Source of the DNA: Morchella semilibera | Taxonomy: Eukaryota; Ascomycota; Pezizomycetes; Pezizales; Morchellaceae | Length of the DNA stretch: 64,000 nt | Assembly (NCBI GenBank): GCA_009192285.1 | Contig: CM018604.1 | Location: forward strand, 1,674,001-1,738,000 | Reading direction: 5' to 3' | Part shown: positions 54,303-57,752 of the stretch, piece by piece | Numbering within the stretch: position 1 is the stretch's first letter | Layout: every line of letters begins with the position of its first letter | Notes under the pieces: model-generated | Told to the model about the DNA's origin: nothing | The model's database searches: none | The model's input: only the letters and a program-made list of their open reading frames with translations | Program-made: the position numbers and the translations under genes

Positions 54303-54716
54303 CTCTGTCTATGTTTTGTTTCGTTTGGGCCCAGGATTTCGATATCTGCAAAGTTAAACCTTATTTAATTAATCATAACCGTGGGAGGGGGCAACGATGT
54401 ACAAGGAGAGGAAGAGGGGTGTAAAGAACTGTCTTATTTATGTAGCCTTGTTCGATGGGTAGGAGCAGATATCTGGGCTACCCTCCGAGGGCCTGCTATC
54501 GTTTTGTGTGGGGTGGAAAATTGCGTTTAAAACCGGGCTATTATTGCATAACATATAAAAAGATGCCAAGCTCATGACCCTGTATGAGATGCAATAACGG
54601 TTCAGTCATAAACGTCAGGACATCAAGAGTACAAGACCAGGGATCTAATAAGAATATATTTGTATATTCAGGCATACCTATTTAGGCATCCAACAATATC
54701 GAACCTCGAAGCTGGT
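54303..54716. other. Intergenic between AAA fusion gene and Harbinger element
   Basis: About 400 bases with no gene. It carries the promoter and leader of the minus-strand CCCH-ankyrin-AAA gene and ends at the AAT target duplication of the transposon. Confidence 0.5.
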
Positions 54717-54719
54717 AAT

Positions 54720-54778
54720 AGAGACTTTTAGCCACGGGTGCGAAAGGCAACGAACAAAAAATTATTAATTCCCAAGAC
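54720..54778 (+). repeat. Left terminal inverted repeat of the Harbinger element
   Basis: Begins AGAGACTTTTAGCCACGG and ends CCCAAGAC. It pairs with 57691-57749 at 55 of 59 positions. Confidence 0.92.
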
Positions 54779-55038
54779 CAGGCCGCATGAAAGGGCTAGA
54801 GCAATTATGGAAGTTTTGGACGACATTCTGGATGCAGGATGCAGACAAGGAAGGGAATCCAAGTAGCCAATAATATTGATGATATAATGAGGGGTTGCGT
54901 GCTAACATTGTCTGTTTGTAGGCCACAGGTACGCGGAACCATTCTAGAAGTCATCATTGCGCGGACGCTTTCCTGAAGGCCACCGTTACGCGGATTCTTT
55001 TTTTCATCAATCGTTACACGGATTCCTGTTAATCCCAA

Positions 55039-56374
55039 ATGGATCCTGTTCCTCCATCCAAATTCTATCGGTATACGAGCCAAACAGAACCTCGCCACCA
55101 TCCAGCTGCTGGTGCAGCTATGAATGCAATTCCTTCCAGAGCGGATCCGAGTCCCTCTAATCTGGTTCCTTTAAAGGAGTCCTTTACTCCTAGCTGCTTG
55201 ACCAGTCCTCCACACTTTCCTTCTATACTTTCTCAGTCCGGACCTTTGGGTTGCCCGCAATCGTCCTCGTCGTTACGCGAAGTCTTGAACTCTAGCGATT
55301 TGAATAGGGATCCAACACCACTACCGAGTGGGCAATTCTCCGGAGATGCGCTTGATTCAGATTTGGATAATGGTGATCTAATAAGGGATGAGTTAGCTTC
55401 TTTGAAGCAATACAAGGCACTTTGTGGTTTGGTAAAAGAGATCAGACCTTATGCTTGTGCGAAGGGGGAGGTAACAAACAGCTGGCAGTTGGTTTTGGAT
55501 TTGCTTCACTCTAGCGGGTTCTATTTGTCTAAAAAGAAAGCATTGCCGACTCTTCGAGATGAAGTTAAGAAGTTGATAGGGTTTAAGGAAGGATTCGACA
55601 CGATGGAGGAGGTTGACGATTGGTTAAGTGAAAAAGTAAAACCAGGAAAAAAGAATAGCAAGACGCCTATTTTCAATGTTAGCAATGCAGGGAGACCGCC
55701 CCAAGCAGGAAGACCTTACCGGAGTTTTCCTTTTAGTCAAGAAGAAGTAAGAAGTTCTATTCCATAGCTATAATGCAATTCTGACTCAAATCAAAACTCT
55801 TTAGTTAGCCAACGGTCTTGCATCCAATCTTGAGTATATTGCGGATGAGTGGAAGATAGCAAACCTGGACAGAGATCAACGCACAACGGAGAAAAAGCAA
55901 GCAGAAGATGATGAAAGAAGAAGGTTTGATCTTCTAAGAAGAAGTGCGGCTTCTACAAGAGTATTGGTACAAGAACTTGAAGCTGCAAGTTCTGATGCGG
56001 TTATCGCTCCCAATCCACAAAGGAAAAGGAAAAGAGTGCGGAGGGACATTCAATCTTTGAAAATCAGACGTGTTGAAAATGGAGGTGTAGAGGTCGTTGA
56101 GACTACTCTTAATTCTGATTTTAGTATACCTCTTCCCATTGCTGGTCCAGCAAGCTCTTCACAAGAGTTGCCCTCTATTCCGCATCATAAAACACCTGTA
56201 CCTGTCAATCTTTTACCTTCATTTTGGTCGGATCTTACTCAACCACAGCGGGAAAGTGATGAGGAATGGAAAGAGGAGAATAGACGTCAGCTTGATGATA
56301 TAAAGGATGAATTAGTTAAGGTAAATGATAATTTAGAGCGAGTTATTTCAGCTCTTAAATTCTTTCATGAATAA
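55039..56374 (+). CDS. Harbinger accessory (ORF1, possibly Myb/SANT-like) protein
   Basis: Exons 55039-55746 and 55805-56374 join in phase 0 (donor GTAAGA, acceptor CTTTAG) for 425 residues. The first 110 residues are Ser/Pro-rich. A helical block at about 118-190 (LKQYKALCGLVKEIRPY, then TNSWQLVLDLLHSSGF and LPTLRDEVKKLI) has one Trp and helix spacing like the trihelix/SANT DNA-binding proteins carried by Harbinger elements; the match is by pattern only. A coiled stretch follows in exon 2 (DEWKIANLDRDQRTTEKKQAEDDERRRF), then a basic patch QRKRKRVRRD that looks like a nuclear localisation signal. The C-terminus is helical. In better-known Harbinger systems this partner imports the transposase into the nucleus and binds the element ends; that role is inferred here. 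Repeated words such as GTTACGCGGATTC and GTTACACGGATTCC lie upstream at about 54920-55025. Confidence 0.78.
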
Positions 56375-56379
56375 TGATA

Positions 56380-57561
56380 TTATGTACATTTTCTTAGATA
56401 TTCTTTAAGAATCGGTGGACAACAGTTGAAATATAAAGTAGTCTCAGAACCGTAAATACAGATATGGATATTAGTTAGGATTGCTGCGACACAATACTGT
56501 GATCCAATTGGAGAATTGAACAATCGCTGAGAAGATTTGAGATCTAAGGAACTCCAAAGACGTAGTATGTCTGCAAATCCCCACTCAACCGCCTCCCTAC
56601 ATGCCGACATTCTCTTATTGAACCATTTCTCGTCTTCTGTCAAGTCTCGTAACATATGTGAAAATGGAGATAAGAGTGCAGAACAAAGTGGGTAGGCAGG
56701 ATCACCGTACATATAAAAGCCAGATGCATGTAATTTTGATCGTTCTATTAGATTACTCTCCCGTAATAGAGCATTATCATTTCTTTTCCCCTCATAGGGA
56801 CCGAATAGATGATAAATTAATCCATCTGGACATTTTACTGCTGAATACTTCAAAGCATGCAAATGTTTATATCCATTATAGCAATCTCTCTGCCATTTCG
56901 ATGGGCGACATATAGGCCGTATTGTACAATCTATGAATCCCCAGCAATGGTCAAGTGGTGCGCCTTTTTTGTGTATTTTGGTTGCAAAGAGAGAGAGCCG
57001 ATCGTATGTCAAATGACCTTGAAATAACTGTTTAGAATACTTTTTACGAAATAAAACCAGCTCACTTACCTGAATCAAAGTCATTTAAAAGAAAGCCCCA
57101 GTTATCAGTAATATATTTTAACATCCAGTTTATACATTGTGAGATCGATGAGGGATGATAGCCGAACATGTATTGCATCGTTTGAAGTCGAACAGGCCAG
57201 GCCAAACGGGCGCAAAGTAGGAAAAACCCCTCCTCCCGTGTGAAAGGTACACCAGAAGGTACTGTAAACACTTTTGGCAATCCCAATAAACGTGAAATCT
57301 ATTAAACAATGATGAGCATTAATTTATACTATTGCAGAAAGTAATAGTTCATACCATACTGATATCACTAGATGTGAATCTTGTTAGGTGCCGGAACTCG
57401 CTATCTGTCATAGTGGAAAAATCTAACCGAGACCTACTGGGCACCCGGTAAAACAGAAATGTCTCTGATAGATAAAGTAAAATAATTTCTTGTCTCGCAT
57501 TTCTTAGGGCTTTTTGGATCTCTGGTTTGATCCTCTTCGTGCAACGGGCTGAAGACTTCAT
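56380..57561 (-). CDS. PIF/Harbinger DDE transposase
   Basis: Three exons on the minus strand: 57561-57355, 57298-57070 and 57017-56380, joined in phase (donors GTATGA and GTAAGT; acceptors AATAG and TCAAG), giving 357 residues. An ATG at 57678 in the same frame would add 39 residues; I prefer 57561 because homology-like sequence begins after it, but the longer start is possible. The DDE_4 nuclease triad is complete: Asp175 (GFIDCTIRPI), Asp251 (YMYGDPAYP) and Glu290 (CREAVEWGF). The N-terminal half has the helix-turn-helix-like region typical of the family (MTDSEFRHLTRF, MQYMFGYHPSSISQCINWM). The GPYEGKRNDNALL motif after the first Asp also matches. It cuts and pastes element DNA in the nucleus. 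The upstream inverted repeat (57691-57749) must hold its promoter. No disabling change was seen. Confidence 0.88.
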
Positions 57562-57690
57562 TGTTGACTCGAGGTATTGATGACCCCTCACGCAAACCCA
57601 ACCTTTACAGAACTTGATACTGAATTGCCTCTGATCACTTCTATTTTTGCTATAGCTTTCATGCACGCACTCATGCATGACTGGGATAAA

Positions 57691-57749
57691 GTCTTGGGAA
57701 TAAATAATTTCTGGTTCGTTGCCTCTCGCACCCGTGGCTAAAAGTCTCT
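57691..57749 (-). repeat. Right terminal inverted repeat of the Harbinger element
   Basis: Inverted copy of 54720-54778 with four mismatches. It ends GGCTAAAAGTCTCT and is followed by AAT. It lies upstream of the transposase start. Confidence 0.92.
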
Positions 57750-57752
57750 AAT

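Follow-up and report, generated by a model that had tools for sequence, protein, structure and literature searches.

The element at positions 54720-57749 of the window, a 64,000-nucleotide stretch of Morchella semilibera DNA, was very probably a cut-and-paste transposon with two genes and a complete structure, belonging to the Pangu group of the PHIS superfamily; this confidence applies to its identity and general mechanism, not to present activity. The element was 3,030 bp long and was bounded by two 59-bp terminal inverted repeats, the left one at 54720..54778 on the plus strand, starting AGAGACTTTTAGCC, and the right one at 57691..57749 on the minus strand. Comparison of the ends revealed that 55 of the 59 positions were identical and four were mismatched, and that both termini began with AGAGAC. 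Direct reading of the flanks showed a target-site duplication, AAT, at 54717..54719 on the left and 57750..57752 on the right. The accessory gene on the plus strand and the transposase gene on the minus strand were convergent, with a gap of 5 bp between their coding ends. The repeats, the flanking triplets, and the convergent genes had all been described in the original prediction, which was confirmed in nearly every detail, although its group label, Harbinger, needs correction.

The transposase gene was modeled with three predicted exons encoding a product of 357 amino acids. Exon 1 (57355..57561, minus strand), with the ATG at 57561, was followed by a predicted intron of 56 bp (57299..57354, phase 0, GTATGA...AATAG), exon 2 (57070..57298), a second predicted intron of 52 bp (57018..57069, phase 1, GTAAGT...CAAG), and exon 3 (56380..57017). 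The putative catalytic residues D175, D251, and E290 were located in exon 3 in the contexts FID(175)CT, YGD(251)PAYP, and REAVE(290)WGF, so that the triad originally proposed was recovered in the three-exon model. A search with the DDE_Tnp_4 profile of Pfam (PF13359) had been suggested along with it, and the transposase matched all 158 positions of this profile (1-158) at 71.1 bits (E 1.1e-19; cut-off 24.8 bits). The alignment thus took in the entire DDE catalytic region, which is the criterion for PHIS transposases. The match to DDE_Tnp_1 was borderline (23.4 bits against a cut-off of 23 bits). No NCBIfam model matched the transposase at E<=1, phmmer against the PDB gave 0 matches at E<=1, and no relatives were found in the scan of prokaryote contigs. 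A Pfam search for a TET/JBP dioxygenase domain found none in either protein. The single-sequence fold of the catalytic exon was poor (pLDDT 32).

A relative of the transposase was found at locus L066 (C21:121500-128500), which was also present on the duplicate scaffold C22. It contained an uninterrupted, intronless ORF of 354 amino acids (positions 2889-3953 of L066) that was colinear with the window transposase over 354 codons at 68% amino acid identity, straight across both predicted splice junctions. The two segments without counterpart in L066, of 56 and 52 bp, were not multiples of three, had the form GT...AG, and ended at the junctions. The two-intron model was supported because the intronless ORF aligned across both junctions. 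Codon positions 1, 2, and 3 were 72, 83, and 42% identical, respectively, which therefore indicated an old divergence in which the protein sequence was kept while the silent sites changed; dN was 0.25 and dS was saturated, so no ratio could be given. Exon 2 of the convergent accessory gene was also kept in L066, at 35% identity across 170 alignment columns and with an internal stop. One eroded terminus, AAT followed by AGAGTCTTTTATCCACGGGCG, agreed with the window element at 18 of 21 bases. The 21-base end motif matched L066 once, and none of 200 shuffles had such a match, whereas the 14-base motif, with two matches, was not significant alone since 29 of 200 shuffles reached this number. A second end and accessory exon 1, looked for at the L066 locus, were not found. 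With an intact transposase ORF, one end, and half an accessory gene, L066 is possibly a retained gene.

The same reading for the window copy, namely two domesticated host genes of transposon origin, was very unlikely. The single copy would suit it, as would the conservation of amino acids between the window transposase and that of L066 even though the silent sites were saturated; however, the window copy had complete terminal inverted repeats with intact AAT on both sides, MITEs elsewhere had the same ends, and domestication fitted the one-ended L066 better. By a weak parsimony argument, it is possible that the two introns of the transposon were gained in the window lineage, because L066 and the distant relatives L003 and L006/L007 (37% identity) aligned across both intron places without an intron-sized gap. 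Against such a gain, in L008 a stop-containing extra segment lay a few residues ahead of the second intron place, near which the L058, L060, and L065 matches broke up.

The accessory gene was modeled with two predicted exons encoding a product of 425 amino acids. Exon 1 (55039..55746, plus strand) was an open frame starting with ATG and contained a conserved core at residues ~116-206, to which relatives were found in the genome. It was followed by a predicted intron (55747..55804, GTAAGA...TTTAG) and exon 2 (55805..56374, stop at 56372-56374). The stretch of L066 homologous to exon 2 started at LANG, immediately after a TAG. Three further relatives were located at C20:2747388-2748116, C19:4116272-4116820, and C19:2192680-2193294; both C19 sequences contained stops, and the two C20 pieces contained none. 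The four cores shared invariant L, P, G, W, K, and P residues. No Pfam family scored above its cut-off in the accessory protein, at E<=10 neither it nor the four cores were matched by the Pfam Myb/SANT models, and a profile of the core gave only weak and implausible matches in the PDB, the best being a designed TIM barrel (E 0.015). The single-sequence model of the core showed several helices at low confidence (pLDDT 52), in an order that may resemble that of Myb/SANT. The protein carried a basic stretch, RKRKRVRR, at residue 309. Because of this stretch, and because PIF/Harbinger mobilization requires two element-encoded proteins according to PMC2836001, the accessory protein is probably a DNA-binding or nuclear partner. 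The C20 relative (L071, C20:2747200-2748300), with its two stop-free pieces, had no DDE_Tnp_4 match within ~80 kb and a MITE sharing the element's ends ~3 kb away (C20:2751004); it is possibly an orphan accessory gene.

To characterize the insertion footprint, both ends were placed by alignment in 35 rows, which corresponded to 33 distinct loci after removal of two duplicate-scaffold rows; these loci were chosen from the best DNA matches and not from all loci with the inner-end motif. A perfect 3-bp duplication was found in 21 of the 33, the window element included, and consisted of 13 AAT and 8 ATT with no other triplet. At the remaining 12 loci, the ends were damaged or misplaced, or the triplets differed by one base, as in L024 (AGT/AAT). 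When the sites were oriented to AAT, Y preceded the triplet in 18/21 and R followed it in 18/21, and the target therefore reads Y-AWT-R. Searches with the joined flanks of 16 insertion sites gave matches across the junction for L049 only, an insertion in a dispersed repeat, whose joined flanks were crossed by at least 23 listed matches. All four of the empty L049 sites that were fetched and aligned had a single AAT where the filled site had two. For L012, L014, and L024, the repeat matches of the joined flanks stopped at the junction. No empty allele was found on the duplicate scaffolds, since the C21/C22 stretches compared were near-identical and the insertions were common to both; for the MITE locus at C22:1754398, the 7 kb of C21 that were compared contained no match. 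The scaffold pairs C21/C22, C12/C13, and C9/C10 appeared to be duplicated, and some sequence in the assembly may be redundant: identities of 99.97-100% were found in five stretches of C21/C22 and one of C12/C13, each 3.1-3.6 kb in length, parallel matches between C21 and C22 extended from 28 kb to 1.29 Mb, and C9/C10 showed one parallel match.

The duplication is the character by which the PHIS groups are distinguished in PMC4482050: TWA in PIF/Harbinger, AT in ISL2EU, none in Spy, ANT in Pangu, CWG in NuwaI, and TNA in NuwaII. The same paper gives Pangu elements AG or GG termini as a rule, a mean length of ~3.5 kb, and terminal inverted repeats of 11-40 bp. The Results describe a DDE-only transposase and a second ORF without known motif, and the Discussion places Pangu among the groups with a Myb/SANT second protein. 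Pangu corresponds to Harbinger2 of Repbase, as stated in PMC12730594. The window element resembled Pangu in its A-N-T duplication (AAT/ATT at 21/33 loci, and at 4/4 aligned empty sites, all of one insertion), in termini starting with AG, in its two ORFs with a DDE-only transposase and a second protein without known motif, and in its length of 3.0 kb. It differed in its longer terminal inverted repeats, 59 bp against a reported range that is descriptive and not defining, in the middle target base, which was A or T in 21/21 where Pangu has N, in the Y/R preference flanking the target site, and in the MITEs sharing its ends that were documented here. On its sequence characters, the element is classified as Pangu/Harbinger2 by duplication, termini, and ORF content, and it is a new, well-supported family of this already known kind. 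Pangu has been reported from two ascomycetes; its transposases form a clade next to bacterial IS5, and in the survey of 2015, which covered six PHIS groups, it had the fewest potentially active families, 2 of 34 (PMC4482050).

A canonical PIF/Harbinger element, with a TWA target and a Myb/SANT partner, would also have a DDE_Tnp_4 nuclease, two genes, a terminal inverted repeat starting with A, and MITE partners, and the core of the second protein was predicted to be helical, at low confidence. However, TWA was found in 0/21 of the distinct loci with perfect duplications, and the Myb/SANT models failed to match the accessory protein and all four cores, which made this identity improbable. The Harbinger label was thus right for the PHIS superfamily, the completeness, and the two-gene layout, but not for Harbinger in the strict sense, with AAT/ATT at 21/21 and never TWA. 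Pfam alone suggests Harbinger and the insertion footprint says otherwise, which is a trap for the labeling of such elements. The element was also similar to bacterial IS5 in its ANT target duplication (a link made in PMC4482050) and its borderline DDE_Tnp_1 match, but it had two eukaryotic genes with predicted introns and no NCBIfam match at E<=1. It shared with PHISTA, the TA-duplicating PHIS elements of rust fungi (PMC12730594), its status as a fungal PHIS element, but it duplicated AAT/ATT instead of TA and a TET/JBP dioxygenase domain was found in neither protein. The features of ISL2EU (AT duplication, THAP and YqaJ domains), Spy (no duplication, AAATTT target, single transposase ORF), and Nuwa I / II (CWG or (C)TNA(G) duplication) were not those of this element. 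Separately, the two best-scoring DDE_Tnp_4 loci of the genome, L067 (C3:597500-604000) and L068 (C21:2653700-2660200), had inverted repeats readable as TA-AGGG...CCCT-TA and TA-ACGG...CCGT-TA, respectively; both are single loci with the TA-duplicating look of PHISTA. In the paper listings and text passages covered on Pangu, fungal Harbinger2, and Morchella MITEs, no earlier description of the present family was found. PMC6164635 reports 34 PIF-Harbinger elements in one M. importuna strain and 3 in another, and the word Harbinger is absent from the main text of the Morchella crassipes genome paper (PMC7014384).

A search for copies with the same ends, also suggested originally, was performed in the 56.76-Mb genome. 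The inner-end motif (<=3 mismatches) occurred 71 times, versus 0 for the reversed control, and formed 49 clusters, or 44 distinct loci after five C21/C22 pairs were merged by inspection as the same locus on duplicate scaffolds. The window element was the only full-length copy found among the 40 of 50 candidates scored. The other DNA matches listed were either L066, on its two duplicate scaffolds, or confined to the terminal 70 or 76 bp. Most of the measured loci were gene-less MITEs of ~270 bp. The 20 MITEs with perfect duplications were 243-308 bp long, except for two of 605 and 817 bp, and they had only the terminal 60-76 bp in common with the element, their internal sequences not matching it. 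L024 was a 395-bp MITE with another short repeat inside. The MITEs L017 on C8 (up to 586925) and L018 on C4 (from 684901) were identical over 271 bp with unrelated flanks, and further pairs differed by 1-4 substitutions plus indels. Identical MITEs at unrelated loci on different contigs indicate that the MITE/element family moved recently. Recent movement is supported for the family in this way; a recent arrival of the window copy itself, as had been proposed, would rest on its intact frames, the contrast with broken neighboring genes having failed for the one neighbor read through.

Two types of right end were found, a full-length one, which the window element has, and a shortened one. Seventeen of the 20 MITEs fitted the shortened type better, some of them poorly, and the right ends read GACTCT in 13/20 and GTCTCT, the window element's own end, in 3/20. 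The single surviving end of L066 read AGAGTC inward, which is the GACTCT type. It is a serious alternative, which we rate somewhat below even, that the window copy is silent and fixed and that the MITEs owe their movement to a different autonomous element, since lost, for example one of the L066 sister lineage. Such an element would account for the majority right end, which resembled the L066 end at one diagnostic base, and the mismatch of the internal sequences and the single full-length copy would fit it as well. On the other side, the window copy had two open genes with introns of the GT-AG type, its DDE triad was intact, and the MITEs L014 and L023 matched the ends of the window element at both sides. 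This alternative is compatible with the Pangu class and contests only the role of the copy. Present-day activity would be conjectural for the window copy, which may be silent because only one full-length copy was found.

For the Pangu transposon as a whole, the DDE transposase would excise the DNA bounded by the AGAGACTTTTAGCC termini, with the accessory protein probably assisting as a DNA-binding or nuclear partner. Insertion with a 3-nt stagger at Y-AWT-R sites would then duplicate AAT or ATT. The same machinery may have moved the ~270-bp gene-less MITEs in trans, that is, the machinery of the window lineage and probably also that of the one-ended sister lineage (L066). A more specific picture is tentative and less likely than not: a Pangu lineage with long terminal inverted repeats and a W-restricted target (Y-AWT-R), with its own accessory family (core RPY/RPW, G, W, K, P), whose transposase would have gained two introns after its split from the intronless sister and which would still be mobilizing MITEs in the living fungus. 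With a complete copy, end-sharing MITEs, and a resolved target site, the element offers a concrete candidate Pangu transposase/accessory pair for functional study, and the MITEs with its ends are candidate strain markers.

The element was located upstream of a CCCH zinc-finger gene, whose ATG (54302) was ~420 bp away, and a tRNA-Leu gene was at a distance of ~455 bp. The neighboring genes had been thought to contain frame breaks, which was not borne out: the right neighbor, a GFA-domain gene and the one neighbor read through, was open through one GT-AG intron, and in the CCCH zinc-finger gene on the left the one ORF inspected was open. Just left of the element, at 54524-54614 of the window, was a copy of a second, different family of short inverted repeats, with 26 more matches elsewhere in the genome when duplicate scaffolds are included; one copy of this type lay inside the MITE L024 (C2:1948576-1948652).
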